IMG/VR virus record: IMGVR_UViG_3300042446_000416
Coordinates: 1 to 37,268 of that record
Source: a virus
Direction: 5' to 3' (one strand)
Length of the DNA stretch: 37,268 nt
A model generated the notes under the pieces. That model saw only the letters and a program-made list of their open reading frames with translations. It did no database searches and was not told the origin of the DNA. Both the position numbers and the translations under genes were made by a program. Of this stretch, positions 241 through 37,268 are shown in pieces. Numbering within the stretch: the stretch's first letter is position 1; each line of letters opens with the position of its first letter.

Positions 241-603
241 CTAACTATCTCCTTTTGCGGGAGATTCATCCTGCGACTGATGGGGGTCCAATTCATTGCC
301 AAGCAGTTTCAGCAGATCAGGTAGGTGCATCATGGCTAAGGACTTCTCGCCGTCAGCCCTCATGATTACGATGGGAGTTTGACCAGGCTCACACGCCTTG
401 TCTGCCTGCTCCATGAACTCATGAACGGCAATCTTCCTGCGCCTTTTGCACTCAATGAGATAGGTTCCCAGGATCAAGTCTCCCTCTTCGGATACCTGAT
501 ACTGCTTCAGATTGCGCCTGATCCTCACTCCAAGCACATCGAATATCTCATTGGCTACCTCACGTTCGTAGGCAGCACCACGCTGTCTGCTGATCTTTGC
601 CAT
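241..603 (-). CDS. Small PD-(D/E)XK nuclease, Holliday-junction-resolvase-like
   Basis: A 120-residue protein starting at ATG 603, which overlaps the TAA of the upstream small gene by one base (TAATG). A longer reading from a TTG at 612 is less likely. The pattern is a Lys/Arg-rich start, Glu14 in a helix, then Asp42 (EEGDL) and the Glu51-Cys-Lys53 pair followed by basic residues. This is the PD-(D/E)XK core arrangement seen in archaeal-type Hjc resolvases and related small phage nucleases. Family knowledge suggests it cuts branched DNA left by recombination or replication, in line with the exonuclease and annealing-protein genes in the same operon. The exact substrate is inferred; a different small endonuclease role is possible. 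Confidence 0.75.
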   Translation of the reverse strand: MAKISRQRGAAYEREVANEIFDVLGVRIRRNLKQYQVSEEGDLILGTYLIECKRRRKIAVHEFMEQADKACEPGQTPIVIMRADGEKSLAMMHLPDLLKLLGNELDPHQSQDESPAKGDS

Positions 604-755
604 TAGAAACAAGTCGTATTGCAGTTACCGTTGTAGCAGCAAGTCGTACATACAATCATCTTACCGCTTGCTGTCGTAACAGTATGGGTAGAACAATTAG
701 CGTATGCTGCTGTAGCAATTCCCAAACCCAGTACCGCCGCCAAAATTTTCTTCAT
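603..755 (-). CDS. Tiny secreted cysteine-rich protein (50 aa)
   Basis: ATG at 755 follows a textbook AAGGAG site at good spacing. The 50-residue product starts MKKILAAVLGLG, a short positively charged then hydrophobic stretch ending in an Ala-Tyr-Ala signal-peptidase-I-like site at residues 17-19. The mature part of about 31 residues holds six cysteines (21, 36, 39, 40, 45, 49) and many Thr and Asn. The sequence therefore predicts export to the periplasm and possible disulfide bonds. The stop overlaps the start of the nuclease gene (TAATG). I do not recognise the family. It is odd in an operon of DNA-recombination genes; roles such as superinfection exclusion or envelope modification are guesses. 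Confidence 0.75.
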   Translation of the reverse strand: MKKILAAVLGLGIATAAYANCSTHTVTTASGKMIVCTTCCYNGNCNTTCF

Positions 756-767
756 TTTCCAATCTCC

Positions 768-1061
768 TTAAAATGGTACGTCATCATCGTCGCGCATGCG
801 CTTAGATGGGAATGGGTTACGGTTGCTCTTGGTTTCAACAACCTCGCCCTCTGGCTTCACATAGTTGTCCTCTTTCAAACTGATCAAGGCACCACCTGAA
901 GTTTCTTTGGTCCAGGCAGCCAGTCTAACTGTCTCGCCTGCGGCATAGGCACGCTCTAGTTTTAACTCGCCTTTCCAGTCCGGACCATTGCCCTTCTTGA
1001 ATCGGTTGGTTAATAGCACCCCAGTGCCGACCTGTCTCTCACGTTGTTGATAATCACTCAT
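768..1061 (-). CDS. Small SSB-like protein with acidic DDDDVPF tail
   Basis: A 97-residue protein. The body has basic and aromatic residues (NRFKKGNGPDWKGEL) suggestive of a small beta-barrel. The last seven residues, DDDDVPF, closely match the acidic C-terminal tip (DDDIPF) by which bacterial single-stranded DNA-binding proteins recruit partner proteins. Its place between recombination genes supports ssDNA binding or an SSB-mimic or partner-recruiting role. It is shorter than E. coli SSB (178 residues), and the OB fold itself cannot be confirmed by eye. It overlaps the preceding gene's end by 8 bases, which implies coupled translation. Confidence 0.6.
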   Translation of the reverse strand: MSDYQQRERQVGTGVLLTNRFKKGNGPDWKGELKLERAYAAGETVRLAAWTKETSGGALISLKEDNYVKPEGEVVETKSNRNPFPSKRMRDDDDVPF

Positions 1062-1365
1062 CTTGATACCTTTCCTGATAATTAAGCCGTTCTGATTTCA
1101 GTGGCTTGGTTCTAAAAAACCCCTGATACTGGGGATACTGGTGCATAAACAAACGGGCATAGTAGGCAATGAAGTCATTACTAATCTTGAAGTCCTCGCC
1201 CTTTGTCTCAATGCTTGTCTCCCACCGTATTCGATTGATGATGAGCCATGCACTGAGATTCTTGTGTCCGCGATCAATGGCTTGCATAGTGAACCGCTTG
1301 AATAACTCATAAACATGCGGATTCTGCTTATGCCAAGCCCACCACTTGCGCTTGACGTCTTCCAT
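1054..1365 (-). CDS. Conserved phage protein of unknown function
   Basis: 103 residues if started at ATG 1365, which lies 7 bases after the upstream stop. A GTG at 1398 would add 11 residues, but no ribosome site is visible there. It is rich in Trp, Tyr and Arg, with segments WWAWHKQNPHVYELFKRF and AYYARLFMHQYPQYQGFF. To my recollection it belongs to a compact family common in tailed-phage early regions, but I know of no assigned function. Lying between a putative annealing protein and an SSB-like protein, it is probably part of the DNA-metabolism set. Confidence 0.7.
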   Translation of the reverse strand: MEDVKRKWWAWHKQNPHVYELFKRFTMQAIDRGHKNLSAWLIINRIRWETSIETKGEDFKISNDFIAYYARLFMHQYPQYQGFFRTKPLKSERLNYQERYQDE

Positions 1366-1372
1366 AGGCTGA

Positions 1373-2233
1373 TCACTTATGTGCCCCGCCTGGTTCACGC
1401 AATTGCAATGCGAGTGCCTGCTTTACCCTACCAATACCGTTACCAAGCACCTCATGCAGCGTAGGCTTTTCTTCCTTGATCATGCCAATGATGAAGTCGT
1501 TAGCCTTATACAGCGCATCAAGTTTGTCTAACTTGTCAACGACAGAGAACTTCTGGCTATCGCCAATCTTGTCCACCATTTGCAAAAACCCGTCCACCCA
1601 CTCTTCCTCGTTGGGAAACTTGTCATAGGCTTCCTTAGCACCAGGCACCATAAAGACAATCCCTTCCTCTGGGATCGGCTCTACTTCGATTGCTTTAGGG
1701 TCTTCGGTGACAACAATAGCGTCCCTACGGGCTTCCGGAATCGCCTCGACTTCGGTTTCGTCAAGCATTCCGAGTCCGGCATGGGAGAGGACCGCACGAC
1801 GAATCGCTTTTGTAGTCGCTTTAAGCAAAGCATTAGCAAGTCGCTCTCCGGATAGGCTTGAGACGTCAACAGCACCTTGATTCTCCGAAACTCTGCCATC
1901 AGCGCCGGTACATCGGACTGAGACAACGTAAATTCCATCAATTCGTTCCCGATGCGTAATTTGAGTTGACAGTTTATGAATTGCACAGAGTTGTTGTGTG
2001 GCGCCTGCATTTGCATAGAGTATTTGCTTTCCGTTCAGCGTTAATAGATCAAAGGGTTTGGCAGCAGGGTCCAATCCCACCTGGCGGCAGCGATACAAGT
2101 AGTAGTCGCGCTTTTGTCCTTCGTTTAACCCAGACAGATCACCACGCAATACGATGGAGTCCTGAATCTTTGGGTCTAATACAAGTTTGTTTGAGTCTTC
2201 AGGCACGCCTGATATATTGACAACGTTCGTCAT
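1373..2233 (-). CDS. Putative single-strand annealing / recombination protein
   Basis: 286 residues; ATG at 2233 follows an AAGGAG site and overlaps the upstream stop (ATGA). A conserved core at about residues 35-170 includes YYLYRCRQVGLDPAAKPFD, an NGK-LYAN segment and KAIRRAVLSHAGLGMLDETE. This resembles the core of phage RecT-like or annealing-type recombination proteins. The C-terminal third looks acidic and variable. Pairing with a YqaJ-type exonuclease in the same operon matches the classic two-gene phage recombination module (exonuclease plus annealing protein). The family assignment is by pattern memory and is the uncertain part; the gene itself is clear. Confidence 0.6.
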   Translation of the reverse strand: MTNVVNISGVPEDSNKLVLDPKIQDSIVLRGDLSGLNEGQKRDYYLYRCRQVGLDPAAKPFDLLTLNGKQILYANAGATQQLCAIHKLSTQITHRERIDGIYVVSVRCTGADGRVSENQGAVDVSSLSGERLANALLKATTKAIRRAVLSHAGLGMLDETEVEAIPEARRDAIVVTEDPKAIEVEPIPEEGIVFMVPGAKEAYDKFPNEEEWVDGFLQMVDKIGDSQKFSVVDKLDKLDALYKANDFIIGMIKEEKPTLHEVLGNGIGRVKQALALQLREPGGAHK

Positions 2234-2406
2234 TTCTTCTCCTTCATAATTGCCTGTTTGTCATTGCCTTCCACTTCTTCATCACATGATTCTTGAGTGG
2301 CTATGGCTCTCTTCATTGCCGCCTTGTTCCCTTCATAGTGCCCCACGTTGTATGAGATATACATGAAGAAAACAATGCTACCTAGCGCGACGATTAGCCT
2401 AATCAT
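2230..2406 (-). CDS. Small single-pass membrane protein (58 aa)
   Basis: ATG 2406 overlaps the exonuclease stop and the TGA overlaps the next gene's ATG, so 4-base ATGA overlaps flank both ends. The product begins MIRLIVALGSIVFFMYISYN, a clear transmembrane segment, followed by a hydrophilic Lys- and Glu-rich tail ending KEKK. Its own tail DNA supplies the AAGGAG site of the downstream recombination gene. No family recognised. The double coupling argues strongly that it is translated. Confidence 0.75.
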   Translation of the reverse strand: MIRLIVALGSIVFFMYISYNVGHYEGNKAAMKRAIATQESCDEEVEGNDKQAIMKEKK

Positions 2407-3308
2407 TTCACTAGGAACCTGCGTGAACCTGGCTGCTCGACTACAAACTTCTCGTACATTTCAGGCATGGACTGCTTGAATAAGTCAGCCGAGAATCGTT
2501 TGCTGCTCTTGCTGGTTTTCCAGGTAGCCAGGACGGAACCATCTACTGCCATGAGTTGCGCTGCTTCCATCATGTAGCCCTGGATCGCTCCAGACAGTTT
2601 CTCTTCCTTGTCTTCCAGGTCTTTGATCTGATCCTTAATCAGTTTTAGCACCTTGACCTGCTCTTCTAGGGTATGAGTAGCCACCAGGTTTTGCCCAGAA
2701 TCCTGCTTATAGACTAGGCGTGCAGCGTCCCCCATGCTCTCAGGATCAAAGTTGCGTGCCTGGATGCGCCCCCAGAACTTAGCCATCTCCTTGACGTGCA
2801 TATCCATCTGGTCGGCAGAGAACTCGACGGGATAACCCACAATCTCTTGACCGCCAAAGCAGACTACCAGGACCACCTTTTCAATCCGGTGAACGACAGC
2901 CTCATGGAGACACTGGACACGGTAGCCTAGATCAATCTGATCGCTACCCTCGTCTCCATATTTCTTACGTTGCTGGACGCCCAGGTTCTTGACCTCATAG
3001 AGTGTGGCGCCATCCTCACTGATGTAGTCAAAGTGACTGCGGATATACGGTTCATTGGGATGCGACAAGGCATAGTCAGCGTCTTTGAAATTGATCTGCT
3101 TACGTCTTGCGTACTCCCGCATGATCGGTTCCTGGAAGACGTGCCCCATCTGTACTAATTCGACGTGACTCAGGTCATCTAGCGCCTTGGCGCCAATCTT
3201 CTCAGCGTACACCTCACCTGCTTTGCCAGTGGCATAGCGTCTAGCATCACCAGACCACAATGCACTATTGCGTACTTCCGGTAGGAAGTCGTTTCGATCA
3301 TTACTCAT
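2403..3308 (-). CDS. YqaJ/lambda-type exonuclease
   Basis: 301 residues. The PD-(D/E)XK exonuclease motifs are in order: the GxxxxE segment ending at Glu60, Asp94 in SHFDYI, Glu105-Val-Lys107 and Gln132 in VQCLHEA. This is the pattern of the YqaJ/lambda Exo family, which resects double-stranded DNA 5' to 3' to leave ssDNA for an annealing protein. The C-terminal third is helical with a coiled-coil-like stretch (about 215-245). It begins after a GAGGGG site at normal spacing. It works with the putative annealing protein two genes downstream. Function is well supported by motifs; polarity and processivity are family knowledge. Confidence 0.88.
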   Translation of the reverse strand: MSNDRNDFLPEVRNSALWSGDARRYATGKAGEVYAEKIGAKALDDLSHVELVQMGHVFQEPIMREYARRKQINFKDADYALSHPNEPYIRSHFDYISEDGATLYEVKNLGVQQRKKYGDEGSDQIDLGYRVQCLHEAVVHRIEKVVLVVCFGGQEIVGYPVEFSADQMDMHVKEMAKFWGRIQARNFDPESMGDAARLVYKQDSGQNLVATHTLEEQVKVLKLIKDQIKDLEDKEEKLSGAIQGYMMEAAQLMAVDGSVLATWKTSKSSKRFSADLFKQSMPEMYEKFVVEQPGSRRFLVK

Positions 3309-3586: not shown

Positions 3587-3783
3587 GTCATGTACTCCTT
3601 CACCGTGACAGTGACACGGACAATACGCACGTTGAGATTGCGCCAGTAGTGATTGTCTTCCAGCCACATTTCAGCGTGCCTCTTGGTTTTGAATAGCGCA
3701 GTGTTAAACGTTGGCTCATAGTAGCCATAGGTTACAAAGCCACCGCGCTTGGTTTGGATAGCCCACAAGTGCTTCTTAGTCAT
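3583..3783 (-). CDS. Small hypothetical basic protein (66 aa)
   Basis: ATG 3783 (MTKKHLW) is preceded by GGAGG, although spacing is slightly long. A GTG two codons upstream is possible but unnecessary. The product is basic and aromatic (YGYYEPTF, KTKRHAEMWLEDNHYW), the kind of small fold seen in phage early proteins. No family recognised. It overlaps both neighbours, the coiled-coil gene upstream by 8 bases and the micropeptide downstream by 4. Confidence 0.65.
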   Translation of the reverse strand: MTKKHLWAIQTKRGGFVTYGYYEPTFNTALFKTKRHAEMWLEDNHYWRNLNVRIVRVTVTVKEYMT

Positions 3784-3946
3784 CGACACTTGCCTCCATC
3801 TCCAGGCGGGATTCCTTGAGACGTTGGACCGATGCTGATAACCGACGGACAGACTCTTTCGCCTTATCCAGTGCAGCCTGGTATTGCTTCTCTTGTTGAC
3901 GTATTGAATCGACTAACTCGTAGTCGTAAACATAGGTTGTTTGCAT
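3776..3946 (-). CDS. Small coiled-coil protein (56 aa), first gene of the early operon
   Basis: ATG 3946 follows GAGGGG at normal spacing and lies about 40 bases from a good promoter. After the N-terminal QTTYVYDYELVD, residues 15-50 form a Gln-, Lys- and Arg-rich helix with regular hydrophobic spacing, so a coiled coil is likely. As first gene of the operon it could be a regulator or host-takeover factor, which is inference. No family recognised. Confidence 0.65.
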   Translation of the reverse strand: MQTTYVYDYELVDSIRQQEKQYQAALDKAKESVRRLSASVQRLKESRLEMEASVDD

Positions 3947-3989: not shown

Positions 3990-4018
3990 ACATTAGTCCT
4001 GTTCACACATCATGTCAA
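3990..4018 (-). promoter_or_regulatory. Sigma70 promoter of the minus-strand early operon
   Basis: On the minus strand a perfect -35 TTGACA (4018-4013), a 17-base spacer and -10 TAATGT (3995-3990) stand about 40 bases upstream of the first gene. This is close to consensus and the best promoter visible in the window. It would serve the whole run of genes down to the glycosyltransferase. Confidence 0.75.
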
Positions 4019-4124
4019 CAACTATTTCGATTGTATTTTCTAATCGACAATGACTACCTGATAGCCTGTGGATAACTCTGTGGATAACTTGGGGATAACT
4101 GGGTATGGGAAGGGAGGGGTCCAC

Positions 4125-4156
4125 CATATATCTATAGGGTTACATATATCTATAGG
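4125..4156. repeat. Direct repeat CATATATCTATAGG x2
   Basis: The 14-base word occurs at 4125-4138 and 4143-4156, just beside the DnaA-box cluster. It may be part of the unwinding region or iterons for a phage protein. Confidence 0.75.
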
Positions 4157-4180
4157 ATATAGGGTACCTATAGCCTATAG
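4150..4180. repeat. 31-bp near-perfect palindrome built from CTATAGG
   Basis: The arms at 4150-4163 and 4167-4180 match at 13 of 14 positions around a GTA centre. Each arm contains two CTATAGG-like heptamers. It can bind a dimeric protein or extrude as a cruciform. The heptamer recurs in the second intergenic region near 5955-5993. Confidence 0.75.
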
Positions 4181-4245
4181 TTTTTCTACTATCCTAAATA
4201 AAAAATAGATAGCAAAGATTCTATATAGAGCCTGTGGATAACTCT

Positions 4246-4489
4246 ATTTTTTTTAGGCAACCAGAATTTGAACCGAACGTCTGAACGTTTCTATTTTTTT
4301 TTGCCAGCCATGCTTTTTGAATCTGCGCGATTGACAAGTCATTTATAGATTAAGAGATTAGCAAATGCACTGCGCGCCCAGGGGCGCGTGCATGCGGCAG
4401 GGGATCAGGCGCCAGGGATAGCGCCCAGGATCAACCAGGAAAGCCCAGGCGCCGATCTTAGGACCAGGGCAGGGGATAGCCCAGGGAAT
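4246..4489. other. Gene-free stretch with GC-rich CCAGG/GGCGCC repeats
   Basis: No coding region could be supported here. The first part (to about 4370) is AT-rich with T-runs. From about 4371 the composition flips: 42 of 60 bases are G or C at 4381-4440, with many repeats of CCAGG, GCCCAGG and GGATAGC. The GC-rich part begins the compositional island that holds the ArdC-like gene. Confidence 0.6.
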
Positions 4490-4520
4490 AAAAAAAGGGC
4501 GCCTATAGCGCCCCTTTTAA
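4490..4520 (-). terminator. Rho-independent terminator of the ArdC unit
   Basis: On the minus strand, GGGGCGC pairs with GCGCCC around a 5-base loop (one bulged base) and is followed by seven Ts. It lies just after the last gene of the minus-strand ArdC unit and would stop its transcripts before the origin region. Confidence 0.75.
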
Positions 4521-4525
4521 TGAGT

Positions 4526-4547
4526 CCGGATTTTTCCTAGAATCCGG
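4526..4547 (-). other. Hairpin at the end of the 45-residue gene
   Basis: CCGGATT (4526-4532) and AATCCGG (4541-4547) form a perfect 7-bp stem with an 8-base loop covering the stop codon. The terminator follows directly, so the hairpin may protect the 3' end. Confidence 0.5.
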
Positions 4548-4674
4548 CGATATCTCCCAGGATCATGACCAGCCAAATAAAGGCATAAAACCCAAAGGCG
4601 CCCAGGACCGCGACCAGGTAAAAAAAGGCGCCGCCCTCATTCATTCGATCATCAAAGGATTTGCGCTGTCTCAT
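4537..4674 (-). CDS. Small membrane protein (45 aa)
   Basis: ATG 4674 overlaps the upstream stop (ATGA) with GGGGGA just before it. The first 15 residues are charged (MRQRKSFDDRMNE). The rest is one long hydrophobic segment rich in Phe and Gly (FYLVAVLGAFGFYAFIWLVMILG). It is probably an inner-membrane peptide. No family recognised. Its DNA has the same CCAGG/GGCGCC-rich style as the ArdC-like gene. Confidence 0.65.
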   Translation of the reverse strand: MRQRKSFDDRMNEGGAFFYLVAVLGAFGFYAFIWLVMILGDIAGF

Positions 4675-4880
4675 GCTTCCCCCTTTGACAGATCAATGAA
4701 CCAGGACGGGGGAATAGGACGATCAGGCGCCCAGGTATTCCCGTTATGTTCAAAGGTTACATGTCCGATAGAAAACCGGCGCCCTATTGACCAGGGAAGC
4801 GCCAGGGCAAAGGCGCCGCCTGGCGTGCTAATCGTTACTTTCCGGCATGGTGTAGAGCGTGAAACGCGAGATTTTTTCAT
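4671..4880 (-). CDS. Small hypothetical protein (69 aa)
   Basis: ATG 4880 follows the recurring CCTAACCTATAAGGGGCT leader. The product starts basic (MKKSRVSRSTPCRK), then has a beta-like stretch and a Trp/Pro-containing C-terminal part (WAPDRPIPPSWFIDL). No family recognised. It is the second gene of the ArdC unit. Confidence 0.6.
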   Translation of the reverse strand: MKKSRVSRSTPCRKVTISTPGGAFALALPWSIGRRFSIGHVTFEHNGNTWAPDRPIPPSWFIDLSKGEA

Positions 4881-4964
4881 AGTAAAGCCCCTTATAGGTT
4901 AGGAATGGCGCGCCCAATGCGTGCCCCAGGGCGCCCGATCCAGGCAGGCGCCCCAGGTCAGGCA

Positions 4965-5846
4965 CTAAGCCGCCAGCGCTTCGCTTTCCTGGTTTTCTAC
5001 CTGGTTAGACTTCACCAGGTAATCAAGCGCCGCCTGTGCTTTACCCGCCGCGCTTAGGATAAATTTTTTGTCATTCCTGAGAGACTTTAACCAGGACTCA
5101 ATATAGGCGGCATGTCTTAAATCGCCGTCAATGCCAAAGTGAGCGCATAGCATCGCGGCGCCTAGTTCCGCTACCAATTCCTCGTAAGCGTAACCCTCCG
5201 CGCCAAACCTGGCGGGAGTCAGGCGATCAAGGCGCGACTTGTGCCCCGTCGCGTGCGTCATCTCATGCAACAGTGTCGCGTGGTAATTCGCGGCACTCTT
5301 GAATGCCGCAAGGGGAGGCATGACGATTGCATCGGTAGAGGGGCGGAAATAGGCTTCATCTCCGGCATGCGTCAATCCGCCTGCCAATGCCAGGCGATCC
5401 ACTAACGCCAGGACGTCAGGGGAGGCGTCAAAATCCGCCTTTGGAGGTTCCGGCATTTCCGGCAGGGTTAAGCCCTCGCATTGGTCCACATTGAAAACCC
5501 AATACGATTTGACGAAAGCATAAGAGGATGTTTCGCTTTCGCCGTTTTCGCCTTTGGTTTCCTTTTTATGCACGTTCCAGTAAACGACGGGCGTGCCCTT
5601 TTGCCCTGCCTTAACAGTGCCGCCCAGGGCTTGCGCCTGTTTGAATGTCACATACCAGGGAGTAGCAAAGGGTTGCATGCCAAGCCAGAAATGATTCACG
5701 CCCCTATAGATCGTGCCGCTTGCAGGGTTATAAGGCATGCCTGCGCCTGGCGCTTGTTTCAGAGTACGCCAGGGCTTCACCCAGGGCGCCGCGCCCTTTT
5801 CTAGTTCTCCAATAATGCGATCTGTGATTATTTGTGCAATATCCAT
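4965..5846 (-). CDS. ardC: ArdC-like antirestriction protein / zincin metallopeptidase
   Basis: 293 residues. The N-terminal ~125 residues match the ArdC ssDNA-binding domain style (GAAPWVKPW, YRGVNHFWL, TPWYVTFKQAQALGG, GQKGTPVVYW). The C-terminal half is the zincin-like domain with HEMTH at 194-198 (zinc ligands His194 and His198, catalytic Glu195) and a downstream YEELVAELGAAML helix offering the third ligand. ArdC of conjugative plasmids protects incoming DNA from host restriction. Phage copies are thought to act early. The start follows an AAGGGG site in the recurring leader and lies below an operator-like palindrome. Its GC-rich word usage differs from most neighbours, suggesting separate acquisition. 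Confidence 0.85.
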   Translation of the reverse strand: MDIAQIITDRIIGELEKGAAPWVKPWRTLKQAPGAGMPYNPASGTIYRGVNHFWLGMQPFATPWYVTFKQAQALGGTVKAGQKGTPVVYWNVHKKETKGENGESETSSYAFVKSYWVFNVDQCEGLTLPEMPEPPKADFDASPDVLALVDRLALAGGLTHAGDEAYFRPSTDAIVMPPLAAFKSAANYHATLLHEMTHATGHKSRLDRLTPARFGAEGYAYEELVAELGAAMLCAHFGIDGDLRHAAYIESWLKSLRNDKKFILSAAGKAQAALDYLVKSNQVENQESEALAA

Positions 5847-5888: not shown

Positions 5889-6259
5889 GAGTAGATTAAC
5901 GCATTAAGGCGCCCAGGGGAAGACGTCCTATATATATATATACGATGATATTTTCCTATAGGTATATGGGTATCTATAGGAATATGCTATAGGGGACGAT
6001 GGGGTATAGGCGGATAGGTTGCCAATTCTCGCGCCCTGGTCAATATATGAAATCCAGGCGGCGGCAGGGCATGGGGTACGGGATCAATGGGGCAGGGGCA
6101 CTATCAACGCATGCGGCACGCCTGGCGCTGATCCTATCGGGCAGGGCATGCCAGGGCAGGACGGGCAGGCGCGAGTGTGTCCCACGAATGGACGCGACCC
6201 TCGGCAATTGCGCGCCCCATTTCGCTCCCCGCCCCAAGGAAAAAACGGGTTTTCCTAGA
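5889..6259. other. Divergent intergenic region with AT repeats and a GC-rich CAGG tract
   Basis: No convincing gene. At 5929-5942 is a TA run, at 5953-5982 an inverted repeat, and from about 6045 to 6185 a GC-rich stretch with repeated GGCAGGGCA and CCAGG words like those at 4371-4490. Open frames exist here (for example from 5999) but lack ribosome sites and have implausible compositions. Confidence 0.5.
5953..5982. repeat. Inverted repeat TTCCTATAG / CTATAGGAA
   Basis: Perfect 9-bp arms (5953-5961, 5974-5982) around a 12-base spacer, followed by another CTATAGG at 5987-5993. The same heptamer builds the palindrome in the candidate origin. Confidence 0.7.
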
Positions 6260-6789: not shown

Positions 6790-6851
6790 AATGGCTGTGG
6801 ATTCCGGCTTTGTTTTTTCTGGTCAACCTTTGGGTATGGGTGATTGAATGA
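6786..6851 (+). CDS. Membrane micropeptide (21 aa) with GTG start
   Basis: GTG 6786 overlaps the upstream stop (GTGA), and the TGA overlaps the next gene's ATG. The peptide is one hydrophobic, Trp-rich segment (WLWIPALFFLVNLWVWVI). A weak GAGG lies upstream. The double overlap and clean membrane character argue for translation, but it is tiny and may only serve coupling. Confidence 0.4.
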   Translation: MKWLWIPALFFLVNLWVWVIE

Positions 6852-7465
6852 GTCATAACCTTGAATTGCTATTTCCGACGCCGGTGGCGTTCTTTGATCT
6901 GGGGTTTGAACTGACCGAGGAAGAACGCACGTTCTTGCTAAACCAAGAGAGGCGCCCCAACGAGGGAAACCAGTCCTCTGTGGATAACTACCTGCTAGAC
7001 AAACCGGAACTGATCCGATTATCGGACCGTGTTCAGGAGTGTGTAACAGAGTATGCGACTGACGTGTGGAAGGCGGATATTCAAGCCTACGTCACCCAGT
7101 CTTGGTTGAACTGGACTAAGCCTGGGCAGTATCACCACAAGCACGCCCATCCCAATAGCCTGTACTCCGGCGTGCTGTACATCGACGTTGAGGATGACCG
7201 TGATCGGATTTCGTTCTACCAAAGCGGTTATCAGCAACTCAAGCCTAAGTACAAGGAATGGAACCGGTGGAACTCAGAGTCCTGGTGGCTGCCGGTTAAG
7301 ACCGGAAGTTTGGTGATATTCCCTTCCTGCCTAACCCACATGGTCGAAACCGTGCCAGGGGAAGTCATTGGCAAGGAGCGCGTGAGCCTTGCGTTTAACA
7401 CTTTTGCCAAACAGATTGGAGATAACCAAAGCCTAACCGAATTGATACCCAAGCACTTTTCCTAA
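6848..7465 (+). CDS. 2OG-Fe(II) oxygenase-like protein
   Basis: 205 residues. The segment around 95-112 (HHKHAHPNS then SGVLYI) followed by FYQSG, GSLVIFPSCLTH (His164) and ERVSLAFN (Arg178) matches the jelly-roll 2-oxoglutarate/Fe(II) oxygenase family common in phages (TIGR02466, 2OG-FeII_Oxy_5). The proximal His ligand is His99 or His101, His164 is the distal ligand, and Arg178 is a likely 2-oxoglutarate anchor. Such enzymes hydroxylate proteins or nucleic-acid bases; the substrate here is unknown. It lies upstream of an FkbM-type methyltransferase and terminase. Confidence 0.85.
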   Translation: MSHNLELLFPTPVAFFDLGFELTEEERTFLLNQERRPNEGNQSSVDNYLLDKPELIRLSDRVQECVTEYATDVWKADIQAYVTQSWLNWTKPGQYHHKHAHPNSLYSGVLYIDVEDDRDRISFYQSGYQQLKPKYKEWNRWNSESWWLPVKTGSLVIFPSCLTHMVETVPGEVIGKERVSLAFNTFAKQIGDNQSLTELIPKHFS

Positions 7466-7474
7466 CGGGTGCCT

Positions 7475-7759
7475 ATGACTGATGGGGGTTTGCTGGATGA
7501 AAGGCTGCGCTGTCGTGGCTGTGGCGAGGTGCATAGTCATGCCAAGATCGTAAGCCTTCCGGATGGTCGGGAGGTAGGAAACTACAGCGAAGAGCATCGG
7601 CGGTATTGGGAAGCCAACTGGGTTCTCAAGCGGTACAGAAGCAAACGGACCCGCCAGGAGTACCTGAGTCGGATTGAAGAACTAAGAGGGTTTGAGGCAA
7701 AGATGGAACTGCGGGACGAAATGCTGAGAATCTGGAATTGGAAAAAGGGGCGCAAATGA
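7475..7759 (+). CDS. Small zinc-ribbon-like protein (94 aa)
   Basis: ATG 7475 gives MTDGGLLDERLRCRGCGEVH with Cys13-x2-Cys16 and nearby His20 and His22, a candidate metal knuckle. The rest is helical and basic (KRYRSKRTRQEYLSRIEELRGFEAK). A GTG at 7469 is an alternative start. It resembles phage-encoded HNH- or zinc-finger-type accessory proteins but lacks a visible nuclease motif. No firm family. It overlaps the methyltransferase start (ATGA). Confidence 0.6.
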   Translation: MTDGGLLDERLRCRGCGEVHSHAKIVSLPDGREVGNYSEEHRRYWEANWVLKRYRSKRTRQEYLSRIEELRGFEAKMELRDEMLRIWNWKKGRK

Positions 7760-8535
7760 ACATATTGAATACTAGGCACGGGCAGATCATGGTCCGTCCT
7801 GGACCAGACCTAATCAGCAACTACCTGACCCAGGCTGGACAGTACGAGTGGGAGGTGGTCGAGATATGCCGCCTACTGGCTGGCAACTTTGACACTGGCA
7901 CGATTATTGACATAGGCGCCAACATGGGCACCGTTACGGTCCCTCTTGCCAAAGCCCTACCCAAGTACGACTTCATTGCCTACGAGCCACAAAAGCAAGT
8001 CTTCTACCAACTCTGCGGCAACGTGGCTTTGAATGATCTCTACAACGTGGACGTGAGAAACAAAGCATTGGGCAAAGACTACAAGAACTTTTGGATCGAC
8101 ATGCCCGACTACCAGACCAACGGCAACATTGGCGCCTGGTCTATGTCAGAGTTTGTGCGCGAGAACTCCACTGAAGCCAAAGCCGGTGGCAAACAGCAGT
8201 ACGTTCAGCAAGACGTACTTAACGACATTCCTTGCCCAAGCCCACTGCGGTTAATGAAGATTGACGTCGAAGGCATGGAGTTAGAGATATTGCAGGGCGC
8301 CAACTACATGCTGCAAGAACATAAGTACCCACCACTGGTTTATGAGTGCTGGTCACAGTTTGATTGGTACAAACCCGTAGCCGAAGAGTTAGACCTGTAT
8401 GTGCGCGGCATGGGCTATGAGACGCACAAGATTGGCAATACGATTGTGGCGTTAAACGAAGACAACCCGCTGAAGGTAAAAATCACACGCAACGGTGACG
8501 CCGTAGGCTTTGAGGTGGAGCGTAATGGAGTTTGA
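7756..8535 (+). CDS. FkbM-type SAM methyltransferase
   Basis: 259 residues from ATG 7756, which overlaps the upstream stop. The SAM-binding loop IDIGANMGTV sits at residues 51-60, with acidic Glu77 in FIAYEPQ and the family hallmark LMKIDVEGMELEILQG later on. These are FkbM/Methyltransf_21 features. Members O-methylate sugars or other small targets; the phage substrate is unknown. It could modify the same target as the nearby oxygenase, which is inference. Confidence 0.88.
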   Translation: MNILNTRHGQIMVRPGPDLISNYLTQAGQYEWEVVEICRLLAGNFDTGTIIDIGANMGTVTVPLAKALPKYDFIAYEPQKQVFYQLCGNVALNDLYNVDVRNKALGKDYKNFWIDMPDYQTNGNIGAWSMSEFVRENSTEAKAGGKQQYVQQDVLNDIPCPSPLRLMKIDVEGMELEILQGANYMLQEHKYPPLVYECWSQFDWYKPVAEELDLYVRGMGYETHKIGNTIVALNEDNPLKVKITRNGDAVGFEVERNGV

Positions 8536-28944: not shown

Positions 28945-30354
28945 ATGGCTGAAGAAAATCAAACTGAAGACCTAGCGCAAACGCCTAAAAGCACCACTCT
29001 CCCAGACACACTGGGCACAGTGCCTACTCTTTTAGGTGGGTTTGGTCAGGCTGCTGGTATTTCTGGGCGCGGTAAGTTTGCCCGTGAAAAAGTTGGCGCA
29101 CTATTAGGTGATGCTGCCAAAGCCGAGGCTGAAGCCAAGTTTGGCGCTTTTGAGCGCGATCAGGGAATCCTGCAAAAGACCGCGCAAGCCGAAAAAGACC
29201 TGGCTACTAGCATGCGTACCCAGACCCAGAATCTTGAAAGAGACTTGGCTAAACCTGGCGAGTTTGCTGCTCCTGAAATCAAGGCTTCCGACTATGCTGC
29301 TAATGCTGCAATGCGTATGGTCACTTCCTTGTTGCTTGGTGGGGTAGCACGCACTTCCGGTATGGCTCAATTACAGTCGATCCGCGCCATGCAAGACGCT
29401 GAAGACAAAGGGCAGCGTCAGGCTTTTGCTGATGCACGCCTGAAGTTTGATGACTCTGAACGGGCGCGCAAAGAGAACAATTCCATGCTCAAAGAGCGTT
29501 TTGAGCGCATGATGAAGTTGCTATCCCAGGATCGCAATGCAGCATTGGTTGAGGCTAAGTTGATTGAAGGCAACATGGGCAAAGGCATTATTGCTGCTGA
29601 ACTGCGTGCCGGTAACTATCAAAAGGCTTACCAGTTGTTCCAAAACGCCATGAAGCAGGCTGATCAATTAGAGGTAGCCCAGGTCAAAGAGGCTGCTAAA
29701 CCTGCCAAGATTGAGCAATTACCGTCTGGACTTGAGAAAACCCTTGAGAAGGTTGGTACAGCAAGCGTTTCTCTCAATCGTGCTAATCAAACCAGAAAAC
29801 CTGAATTTTTTGGCATTGCGCCAAGCGACAAGGTTGCAGAGTTAATTATTTCTGGCGTAGAAAAAGGCTTGCCGGTTGGTGACATTATGACTTCATTAGG
29901 AGTAAATGCGCCAAAAGTAAATCGTGAGGCGGTTGAATGGTGGAAAGACTATTCTGGTTTTGTGTCCCAAGTGCGTAATCAATTGTTCGGTGCAACATTA
30001 ACTCTCAAAGAAGCATCAGATTTCAGAAAATCTACAATTAGTCCAGCAACCGATCCAAAAGTTGCTGATGATTATTTTAGAACGCAAATTGCAATTATTA
30101 AAAAAGCGGTTGAGCGTGAACGTAAAAAAGGATTGGCTAGAGGCGTAAGTGCAGAAACTTTATCTGCTTATTTAGATACCGCAGATGATGAACCGGCTGC
30201 ACCGGCTGCACCGGCTGCCGCAGCAAGACCTAATGACAGGGCTAGGATTCCTACCGTAAACACCAAAGAAGAGGTTGATGCACTTCCCGCTGGCGCTGAG
30301 TACATTGATGCTCAAACTGGCGTAAGAGGTAGAAAACCTGGAGGACCGCAGTGA
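28945..30354 (+). CDS. Internal virion protein (469 aa)
   Basis: Helical, Ala/Lys/Glu-rich protein. The middle contains coiled-coil-like stretches and the C-terminal part a WWKDYSGFVSQVRNQLFGATLTLKE helical unit, typical of the large ejection proteins of short-tailed phages. Near residue 417 an Ala-Pro tandem repeat arises from three copies of a 9-base unit (30193-30219). Role inferred from neighbours. Confidence 0.6.
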   Translation: MAEENQTEDLAQTPKSTTLPDTLGTVPTLLGGFGQAAGISGRGKFAREKVGALLGDAAKAEAEAKFGAFERDQGILQKTAQAEKDLATSMRTQTQNLERDLAKPGEFAAPEIKASDYAANAAMRMVTSLLLGGVARTSGMAQLQSIRAMQDAEDKGQRQAFADARLKFDDSERARKENNSMLKERFERMMKLLSQDRNAALVEAKLIEGNMGKGIIAAELRAGNYQKAYQLFQNAMKQADQLEVAQVKEAAKPAKIEQLPSGLEKTLEKVGTASVSLNRANQTRKPEFFGIAPSDKVAELIISGVEKGLPVGDIMTSLGVNAPKVNREAVEWWKDYSGFVSQVRNQLFGATLTLKEASDFRKSTISPATDPKVADDYFRTQIAIIKKAVERERKKGLARGVSAETLSAYLDTADDEPAAPAAPAAAARPNDRARIPTVNTKEEVDALPAGAEYIDAQTGVRGRKPGGPQ

Positions 30355-32816
30355 TGGCGCAAACTGATCGCTTTGGCAACCCAGTAGTTGAATCGTCCAA
30401 GACTGATCGTTTTGGCAATCCGGTTATTGAAGAGCCTAGGTCATCCGTTACTGCTTCCAGCCCAGAGGCTAAGAGCCTGGCAGAGCGAATTCCCGTTGGA
30501 GAAACTGATCGTGAGGCTGCTCGACTGGCTGCCCAAACTCCGCCTGAGCGCCGAGTGCAGCCAATTTCCCCAGTACAGGGTGCATTGCAAGCCATGTCCG
30601 CAATCCCCATTCTTGGTGGTGGCGCTAGGGTAGCCCAGATGCTATCTGCTGGAGGCAGGCTTGCTCCGTATGCCAAACGTGCGGCTGACGTTTTGATTCC
30701 AAAGACCGGCAAAGAACTTGTTGGTCGTGCTGCCTTGACCGGCGCTGGTGGTGCTGCCGCCCAAGCGGTGAGCAATGTGCTGCCTGAAGACACTGCGCCT
30801 TATAAGCGCGAGTTGGCTGAAATGGGTACGGCAATGGCTGTAGAGGGTGCCGGTGGCGCCCTACGATCCGCTGGTCGTGCTGTTCGTCCTATCCTGCCTG
30901 GTGGTCCTGGCAGGGCTGGTGAGCGTGTGGTTCGTGAGTTGCAGCCTGAAGTCCTAGAAACCTTACCTGCCCTTACAGAATCCAGAAAGAGCATTGTCCG
31001 GCAGGCTATGGAGCGCCTGCGTGGTAAGCCTATTGAGTCAGAGGTTGACGTTGGCGAGGTTGCGCGTATCCTTGGAACTGATGCGGCTCTCACACGACAG
31101 CGTGGCGGGGAGTTGGCTTCGCGTTTAACGGCTGAGACTGAGCGCAGAATGGCAGACATTAGCCGTCCTAAGACCGCTACAGAAGTCGGTGAAGAGGCTA
31201 GAAACCTAGCCAATGCAAGGCTCAAAAAACTCATAGAAGACAGAGAAACGCTGGTCAAAAAAGACAAGAAGGCTGCCTTTAATACGGCTCGTACAAGGGA
31301 ACTTGAAGGTCGGCGTGTTGATGAGACAGACGCTTTTGCACGGGCAACAAAAATAATAGACTCCTTGAAAGTCGATCCAGTTACTAAATTACAGGTAGCA
31401 ACTGGGGACACATCAAGACAACTTGATCTTGTGCGAAGAGAGTTAACTGGCATCACATTTAATCCGATGGATGGAACGACTACCAAAACTGGGGTTTCTT
31501 TCGAAAGGCTTGAAGACCTACGCAGATTCCTCGGTGATCGTGCCTCCGGCATGAACAATACCGGCTATGACGCTATCCAGCCTCAACAGGCTTCCAAATT
31601 AAAAGAACTTGTAGAAGACGTCATGAAGGAGTTTACTGGCGGCAAACTTAACGACAAGACTGGTCGAGTAGAGGGCGGGGCGTTCGAGAAGTACCTGGCT
31701 AACTACCGCGAGGCTTCTGTGCCAATCAATGAATTCCAATCTACTGTTGGTCAAAAACTAACCGCTATGGCTGAGGCGCCAAGGGGAACGTTTGCGACTG
31801 ATCCTATGGCTTTGCCCAAGGCTATCTTTTCTAGCCCGACAAACGTGGATGACTTCATTCGCTTAACCGGCGGAGACAGAAAGAGCGTTGAGGCGCTGGC
31901 TCGTAACTTTGTCAGTGAGCAGACTGCCAACATGTCTTCCGCCCAGATCAAAGGATTTCTCAATACAAACCGTAACTGGCTGGCTAAGTTTCCCCAGGTG
32001 CGGGATGACTTCACTAAGTACTCTGATCGCCTGGTTCGTGAGGGTGACGTGCAGAAACGCTTGGCTACCCGCACTGAGGAACGTGCAGCGCGCTTTGAAC
32101 TAGGGCGCGATCCTGCTGAACAAGGGCGCCGGTTTAGAGACTTGCTTACCGGCACTGGCAATGAGGCAGACGTGGCTGCGGCTGGTCGGGTGCTTGGCAA
32201 GACTCCAGAGGGACAGCAGGCATTCAAGACAGCCGTGCGCGAGATCATTGGCACTACGCCTCCTGGCGGACTTGAGGCACGCTACCGTGACCGTATCCGT
32301 CCTGCGCTCCAGGCTTCGGGACTGTATAAGCCGGATGAGATTGGCTTACTGGATGACAGCATTAGGGATATTGTCAGCGTTGAGGTTGCAGTGCAGCGTG
32401 CCATGAGCCGTGCTTCTCAGATTCCTGGCGCTGAGTCCAATGCCTCCATGCTTACCCGCCTGATCAATGAAGAGGTAGCCCAGATGAAGAAGGGCGCGGC
32501 AATGGCTGGCGCCATGACTGGAACCTTACTGGGTGGATTGCGCTACCTTGACCTGCCAACACCTAGCCTTACCCAGTTGGGAGTGGGTTCTGGTGCTGCT
32601 GGATTGGCTTTCAAGGACAGATTCATGCAGTACAACAACAACATTCGGGCTGCTGTAAATGACATAGTTACAGACCCCGAAAGGTTGCGTCAGGTTCTAT
32701 CGGTGCCTCCTGCCCAACGGGAAGGCGTGATCGCCAGTTTGTTACGTCAGGCTGTCGGTACAGCCGTGGGAGTCCAGGCTCCAGAGAGGGAAGAAAATGC
32801 CACTCAAGCGCGGTAA
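30354..32816 (+). CDS. Large internal virion protein (820 aa)
   Basis: ATG 30354 (GTG 30351 is the alternative) with GGAGG upstream. The N-terminus has two tandem TDRFGNPVVE-like units, a repeat seen in T7-like core proteins of many podoviruses. It is followed by Ala/Gly-rich membrane-type segments (about 75-165) and a long charged helical body. Lytic transglycosylase motifs are not seen. Probable ejection/core protein. Confidence 0.65.
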   Translation: MAQTDRFGNPVVESSKTDRFGNPVIEEPRSSVTASSPEAKSLAERIPVGETDREAARLAAQTPPERRVQPISPVQGALQAMSAIPILGGGARVAQMLSAGGRLAPYAKRAADVLIPKTGKELVGRAALTGAGGAAAQAVSNVLPEDTAPYKRELAEMGTAMAVEGAGGALRSAGRAVRPILPGGPGRAGERVVRELQPEVLETLPALTESRKSIVRQAMERLRGKPIESEVDVGEVARILGTDAALTRQRGGELASRLTAETERRMADISRPKTATEVGEEARNLANARLKKLIEDRETLVKKDKKAAFNTARTRELEGRRVDETDAFARATKIIDSLKVDPVTKLQVATGDTSRQLDLVRRELTGITFNPMDGTTTKTGVSFERLEDLRRFLGDRASGMNNTGYDAIQPQQASKLKELVEDVMKEFTGGKLNDKTGRVEGGAFEKYLANYREASVPINEFQSTVGQKLTAMAEAPRGTFATDPMALPKAIFSSPTNVDDFIRLTGGDRKSVEALARNFVSEQTANMSSAQIKGFLNTNRNWLAKFPQVRDDFTKYSDRLVREGDVQKRLATRTEERAARFELGRDPAEQGRRFRDLLTGTGNEADVAAAGRVLGKTPEGQQAFKTAVREIIGTTPPGGLEARYRDRIRPALQASGLYKPDEIGLLDDSIRDIVSVEVAVQRAMSRASQIPGAESNASMLTRLINEEVAQMKKGAAMAGAMTGTLLGGLRYLDLPTPSLTQLGVGSGAAGLAFKDRFMQYNNNIRAAVNDIVTDPERLRQVLSVPPAQREGVIASLLRQAVGTAVGVQAPEREENATQAR

Positions 32817-36487: not shown

Positions 36488-36704
36488 AATACATCTTATT
36501 TACCAGTCTTAGTATTTCGTCTGCCACTAGACTTTGGTTTTGTAGTTTTGGATGCAGCAGCCTTGCCACTGGCTGCCCGTACTTGTCCACTATTAGCAGT
36601 CCTTGTGGATTTACTTCTACCGCCCACGGCGTTCCCAGTTGATCTGCCATCCACTCCTGCTGCCGGTCTGTTTCGTAAGCCTGCTGGCTGCTGTCCTCGT
36701 CCAT
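36486..36704 (-). CDS. Small phage protein overlapping the glycosyltransferase 3' end out of frame (72 aa)
   Basis: ATG 36704 has a good GAGGG site. The product (MDEDSSQQAYETDRQQEW, LGTPWAVEVNPQGLLIVDKYGQPVARLLHP, ending LRLVNKMY) looks like a genuine folded protein with a pattern I recall from small phage proteins. The other frame over the same DNA is the low-complexity Gly/Ser/Lys/Arg tail of the glycosyltransferase. Both may be used, or the tail is only a side product. It ends 10 bases beyond the glycosyltransferase stop. Confidence 0.65.
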   Translation of the reverse strand: MDEDSSQQAYETDRQQEWMADQLGTPWAVEVNPQGLLIVDKYGQPVARLLHPKLQNQSLVADEILRLVNKMY

Positions 36705-37268
36705 TTTTACCCTCAAAGTTACAAGGCTCATCCGTTGGGATAAGCGTTCCTTCAAACAAATAACTGCCCATGTGACCTAGTTGGCACCAGGGTGCTGCGT
36801 ACACCTTACCGCCTGCCCTACGCCACTCATGACAGAAGTGATAGTCCTCGCTCAAAAATCGCTGAGACTCAGAATCAATCGGCGTGTCAAAGAATGCGTA
36901 AATCAATTCACCTGGTTTGAGTGAAGCCATGTCGTTGCGAAACTGTGGCGTGCGCTTCTTTAACTTCTCGTATACCTTGCGCTTGACCATCAAGAATCCA
37001 GTGCCAAGGGCTGCTACCTCGCATGGTTGATCCTGGCGCACAACAACGTTGGGTCGGTTGTCCACCAGGTTCACGACAAATGATCCGGTGAAGTTAGCCA
37101 GGTTCTCTTGCCCACGTCCTACGGCTTCTCGGACCTGCTGCCAGTTGATTTCCTTCTTGGGATAGATGCCGCCAATTACGTCCTTGTCCGCCTCAAACAT
37201 ACGGTAGGCGTCTTCAGGTCTGAATTTAATATCTGCATCAATCCAAAGCATGTGGGTACATTGGCTCT
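36496..37268 (-). CDS. Glycosyltransferase, C-terminal part (5' end lies at the left edge)
   Basis: The frame enters from the right edge (SQCTHMLWIDADIKF) with no start, carrying the DxD motif (Asp-Ala-Asp) typical of GT-A glycosyltransferases, then IGGIYPKK, GTGFLMVKR and SEDYHFCHEWRRAGGKVYAAP. It joins the left-edge part to give 317 residues when the shared CTCT is counted once. Residues after about 250 are low complexity and basic where the DNA also encodes the 72-residue protein. Confidence 0.87.
   Translation of the reverse strand, partial: SQCTHMLWIDADIKFRPEDAYRMFEADKDVIGGIYPKKEINWQQVREAVGRGQENLANFTGSFVVNLVDNRPNVVVRQDQPCEVAALGTGFLMVKRKVYEKLKKRTPQFRNDMASLKPGELIYAFFDTPIDSESQRFLSEDYHFCHEWRRAGGKVYAAPWCQLGHMGSYLFEGTLIPTDEPCNFEGKNGRGQQPAGLRNRPAAGVDGRSTGNAVGGRSKSTRTANSGQVRAASGKAAASKTTKPKSSGRRNTKTGK

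Follow-up and report, generated by a model that had tools for sequence, protein, structure and literature searches.

How does a tailed phage begin to copy its DNA when none of its genes is recognisable as part of a replisome? The question is raised by a small element at positions 4067-4241 of the virus record IMGVR_UViG_3300042446_000416, the whole of which (37,268 nucleotides, hereafter the window) was analysed. An earlier note on this DNA had suggested that the element is a replication origin at which host DnaA loads the host replisome, in a genome that it took to be complete. Completeness is upheld: the record is a complete circular map, with a 4-bp overlap between its ends and a single 342-codon frame that becomes whole again across the join. 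The gene divided by the record ends (36496-37268 joined to 1-240) is glycosyltransferase-like, a tentative name that is our own reading; its family hit, phrog_1574, has no function.

The three perfect DnaA boxes (TTATCCACA) and the near match (TTATCCCCA) that had been described as flanking an AT-rich repeat were recovered at exact positions (Table 1), and their clustering is beyond chance. Along the early operon, the far box is followed by a T-rich stretch, the CTATAG/TATAG array and the near box, and then by two phased boxes, 48 bp of spacer, the promoter, the 3776-3946 gene and the exonuclease operon. The start spacings are 12 and 11 bp within the tandem part and 154 bp out to the far box. 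Neither a tandem pair at 11 or 12 bp nor three boxes inside 180 bp occurred in any of 2000 dinucleotide shuffles of the whole window. The exact box is also enriched window-wide (4 copies against 0.26 per shuffle), the fourth perfect copy lying within a coding gene at 6979-6987; the loose consensus TTWTNCACA is not enriched across the whole window (5 against 3.54 expected, with at least 5 in 34 of 100 shuffles). A DnaA-trio of the B. subtilis type, a motif that does not define every oriC, was absent from the ACA side of the tandem boxes (run of at least 3 in 0 of 12), and at the far box a run was present in 4 of 7 cases with weak or no significance.

Table 1. Features of the early region of the window, including the DnaA-box element
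Feature	Position	Strand	Evidence or remark
PDDEXK / RusA-like Holliday-junction resolvase	241..612	-	phrog_244, E 5e-21; PF24608
SSB-like protein (weak)	768..1061	-	phrog_18154, E 0.0017
114-aa all-helical protein, phrog_13625	1054..1398	-	slot between RecT and SSB-like gene
RecT-type annealing protein	1373..2233	-	same-cluster relative: phrog_561, E 6e-27; PF03837
RecE-like/YqaJ exonuclease	2403..3308	-	phrog_434, E 3e-39; PF09588
56-aa coiled-coil-like protein	3776..3946	-	first gene after promoter; 28-member cluster; no family match
Sigma-70-like early promoter	3990..4018	-	TTGACA 4013-4018, 17 bp, TAATGT 3990-3995; 48 bp from boxes
DnaA box TTATCCACA	4067..4075	-	exact match; tandem, promoter-proximal; kept in relatives
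DnaA box TTATCCACA	4079..4087	-	exact match; tandem, 12 bp from 4067 box
Near box TTATCCCCA	4090..4098	-	one mismatch; phased position, 11 bp from 4079 box
AT-rich CTATAG/TATAGATATA repeat array, candidate duplex-unwinding element	4124..4232		repeats and low stability
Inverted repeat, 14-nt arms, 3-nt gap	4150..4180		inside AT-rich array
Far DnaA box TTATCCACA	4233..4241	-	exact match; opposite side of AT-rich array
ArdC-like antirestriction protein, ssDNA-binding domain and zincin	4965..5846	-	PF08401, PF18818, phrog_7245

The early strand encodes, besides the proteins of Table 1, several very small proteins, and the other strand carries the terminase, portal, capsid, tail, holin and endolysin genes. 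The DNA genes common to the family are a RecE-type exonuclease, RecT, an SSB-like protein and a resolvase; exonuclease and RecT are each present in 14 of 14 whole genomes. The RecT-type copy of the window itself gave only a Rad52 match, below the cutoff. Between RecT and the SSB-like gene lies a slot (window 1054-1398) that is filled interchangeably by phrog_13625, HTH_39 or phrog_2693 proteins, or is empty. Genes for a 2OG-Fe(II) oxygenase and a methyltransferase are found at window 6848-7465 and 7738-8535. The record-wide set consisted of three models, DnaB_C, DNA_pol_A and Bac_DnaA; each matched 0 of 20 records (the window and 19 relatives), and in the positive controls they matched 14, 10 and 14 of 14 control genomes, respectively. 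None of the early genes of the window has a Walker A motif; in the window such motifs are confined to the protein at 30351-32816 in the tail region and to a late protein that is small and basic. Among the 77 early-region representatives of relatives (best 25 of 33 and 25 of 70 families), and in 23 proteins of relatives and 10 window proteins inspected singly, no helicase, primase, polymerase or initiator was recognised. The matches listed for the window proteins and the 77 early proteins of relatives include no cognate Rep or O-like initiator of an iteron- or Rep-type origin. The earlier picture of a phage with recombination proteins and no recognisable replisome genes is borne out by the HMM searches of the window and 19 relatives.

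The box module is kept among relatives, which were gathered via the exonuclease (51 loci) and the portal (80 loci kept of 356). Of the 28 members in the cluster of the 3776 gene, 23 are at loci that include its upstream side, and these form 15 groups at 90% identity; left out of the count were L001, which is a copy of the window, L057, which duplicates the L009 contig, and L007, L013 and L026, each of which breaks off at the gene. In 14 of the 15 groups at least one exact box is kept, placed after the upstream early genes and before the exonuclease operon: two or more exact boxes in 11, one with near variants in 3, and none in L025. Compared with L021, L025 misses about 60 bp with all three boxes, the AT-rich array and the promoter being the same; this looks like a clean deletion, which may be natural or an assembly fault. 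The boxes of the L009 group lie farther upstream, ahead of an inserted gene, and the box pair of L032 points the other way. In relatives further removed (portal about 68%) the cluster has kept its position despite different neighbour genes. A same-direction group within 250 bp is present in 11 of 14 whole genomes, and a stricter tandem pattern matched 10 of 20 records, with no match for the reversed control. When a tandem group is defined by steps of at most 25 bp, all 21 tandem groups listed contain an 11- or 12-bp step, and one also has a 20-bp step. Phased positions without an exact box are mostly occupied by one-mismatch variants (e.g. TTGTCCACA, TTATTCACA and TTATACACA), and several relatives have a same-direction exact far box between -133 and -156, G013 one at -216. 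The same layout is found in an independent GenBank contig, JAGYJQ010000016.1, which belongs to a MAG labelled Balneolaceae.

That contig (L337/L341) is a full-length family member, and the label of its MAG, the clearest host name obtained, may be a host hint or the result of faulty binning; another contig, from a MAG labelled Alphaproteobacteria, is less closely related. ArdC homologues are spread across many plasmid hosts. Window 4360-4900 contains strand-biased repeats: CCAGG occurs 14 times where 1.1 copies are expected (CCTGG once), and GGCGCC 8 times where 0.4 are expected. In G001, L003 and L012, similar one-sided CCTGGG/CCCTGG repeats lie on the upstream side of the boxes; most other relatives lack them.

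The DNA beside the boxes is predicted to melt readily. By nearest-neighbour stability, the second least stable 60 bp of the window genome begins at 4168, and the one less stable site is at 5925, in the spacer from which ArdC and the late genes diverge. Among the 12 genomes examined, the box region (160-500 bp, its bounds chosen by hand from boxes and array) holds the least stable 60 bp in one and the second least stable in 10, and ranks only seventh in G010; the ranking uses base-pair stability with no supercoiling model and covers the MAG contig over 17.6 kb only. For 12 of 22 sequences, no more than 5 shuffles in 100 reach a hairpin comparable to the inverted repeat of the array; the hairpin is clear in only part of the family and was rejected as a core element. 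A TTGACA-type match is present in 17 of the 22 sequences listed, and the distance from boxes to promoter among relatives, worked out by hand, runs from about 12 to 77 bp.

We propose that host DnaA uses the 4067-4241 element as an oriC-like origin of replication, a reading of the sequence to which we give slightly better than an even chance. A DnaA-dependent origin is favoured because the phage has only recombination genes, the host helicase needs loading, and boxes by meltable DNA are the simplest recognised way to do so; the lack of recognisable DNA-copying genes together with a conserved oriC-like stretch suggests that these uncultured tailed phages probably recruit host DnaA. Host DnaA would bind the phased same-direction boxes cooperatively and then melt the adjoining AT-rich array, whereupon host DnaB helicase and Pol III would be loaded for a first round of theta replication of the circularised genome. 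The RecE-type exonuclease, RecT, the SSB-like protein and the resolvase would then convert the copies to concatemers for packaging. As the origin would sit beside the early promoter, early transcription could help its opening. It is plausible, at a little under even chances, that a widespread lineage of tailed phages, lytic by appearance, lost every replication gene including initiator and loader, leaving a minimal transplanted oriC as the sole start and RecE/RecT for the concatemers. This would be, to our knowledge, the smallest DnaA-only origin in any phage.

The element resembles bacterial oriC in its same-direction boxes with 2-3 bp gaps beside very unstable AT-rich DNA, and its boxes have the perfect E. 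coli-type sequence. It differs in having only 3-4 boxes, no dnaA/dnaN neighbours and no DnaA-trio at the tandem boxes, and in adjoining a phage early promoter. Iteron plasmid origins likewise combine DnaA boxes with AT-rich repeats; these origins require a plasmid Rep protein, whereas no Rep protein was recognised in the window. The low-affinity sites of E. coli oriC, as described in PMC4451416, share one orientation and are separated by 2 bp. HTVC010P-type pelagiphages (Polarivirus skadi) are small tailed phages that reportedly have no DNA polymerase, helicase or primase and are described as host-reliant (PMC10504331); they differ in that skadi is said there to encode a helicase loader, and the word DnaA is absent from the main text of that paper. 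MPP-C cyanopodoviruses have genomes of about 37.8 kb without DNA polymerase, for which host Pol III is proposed among other ways (PMC9860041); they differ in encoding primase/helicase and SSB, and this main text does not contain the word DnaA either. DnaA boxes have been marked by Ori-Finder in one Pseudomonas phage (PMC11512268). Our search of the literature, partial in coverage, turned up no paper whose listing describes a DnaA-box origin in replisome-free tailed phages.

GC skew, put forward in the earlier note as a check of origin position, gave no support and was dropped as an origin marker: the cumulative minimum falls away from the boxes in 9 genomes out of 10, and the skew at four-fold sites agrees with the origin in only 4 of 10, both measures being confounded by gene strand. 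Three genomes (G003, G004 and G015) have the same recombination-only gene set with clustered boxes absent, which indicates that the lineage has, or can have, another mode. Upstream of the exonuclease, 13 boxless loci contain isolated 8-mer pairs only and no other tandem array, and the variant boxes or alternative tandem arrays sought in divergent relatives were nowhere clustered. Of the suggestion that the host replisome is loaded by DnaA, the missing replisome genes and the kept module stand, whereas the origin role itself stays a proposal: GC skew lends it no support, and L025, the boxless relatives and the tandem boxes of phages with their own replication genes count against it.

The strongest alternative, which we nevertheless consider unlikely, is that the boxes serve to control the early promoter, or to capture host DnaA by titration or in the manner of DARS/datA, and so slow host initiation, with phage DNA synthesis beginning elsewhere. 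The boxes do lie just upstream of a sigma-70-like early promoter, and tandem boxes are less rare in phages than the earlier note had implied. A scan of viral contigs gave at least 120 stretches with tandem boxes and 8 with the reversed pattern, and only 4 of the 120 matches listed carry the exonuclease of this family. Counted over tandem-box records only, those of at least 25 kb (n=29, from the best 80 of at least 120 listed) contain DnaB_C in 9, PolA in 6 and one or the other in 11. A three-box query at E up to 1 matched 442 of 50,697 phage records, and near-identical tandem TTATCCACA arrays, as in the window, occur in T5-like, Lactococcus 949-like and T7-like Berlinvirus phages. These phages encode their own replication genes; in Berlinvirus nasanit an RNA polymerase is annotated. 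Being common in viral contigs and present in phages with their own replication genes, tandem boxes alone are no proof of an origin. DARS and titrating promoters, according to PMC5835720, have similar box groups. Against promoter control or capture, the variable promoter distance is not readily compatible with an activator at a fixed position, the DNA flanked by the boxes ranks first or second in instability in 11 of 12 genomes, and the phage would still need a way to load the host helicase.

Replication might also have no dedicated origin and be recombination-dependent from the start, RecE/RecT joints being restarted by host PriA and the boxes being accessory. The presence of exonuclease and RecT throughout, the three genomes without clustered boxes included, is consistent with this, but the conserved place, direction and spacing of the box module would be left unexplained, and during the first round a lone infecting genome would presumably find no partner to invade; we regard this course as improbable. 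Marginally more doubtful still is a small undetected initiator or helicase loader, for example the slot protein, that would bind the repeats and bring in the host helicase, DnaA having no more than a helper role, as in iteron plasmids or lambda. Small proteins that look DNA-binding often occupy the slot: 8 of 14 genomes have a winged-helix HTH_39 cluster there and 2 a different protein cluster, and the window has phrog_13625. Loaders of the lambda P and SPP1 G39P types have no Walker motif. The slot is empty, however, in the box-bearing G007 and G014, so that its protein is unlikely to be an obligate initiator. Relatives of phrog_13625 are found in 55 phage records of several kinds, including 100-kb Acinetobacter phages, and the protein model (pLDDT 76) has no PDB match at E 0.001. 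Pelagibacter phage Hodr, which shares the phrog_13625 protein, showed no DnaA boxes in the 16.3 kb examined.

If the element is indeed a DnaA-dependent origin, a whole phage family would start its replication under the cell-cycle initiator of its host, and phage replication would depend on the supply and state of DnaA. Recruitment of the host replisome without polymerase or helicase genes, a matter left open in the text of PMC9860041 and PMC10504331 available to us, would then be explained for these phages, and they would offer compact natural DnaA-only origins for mapping the minimal needs of an origin.
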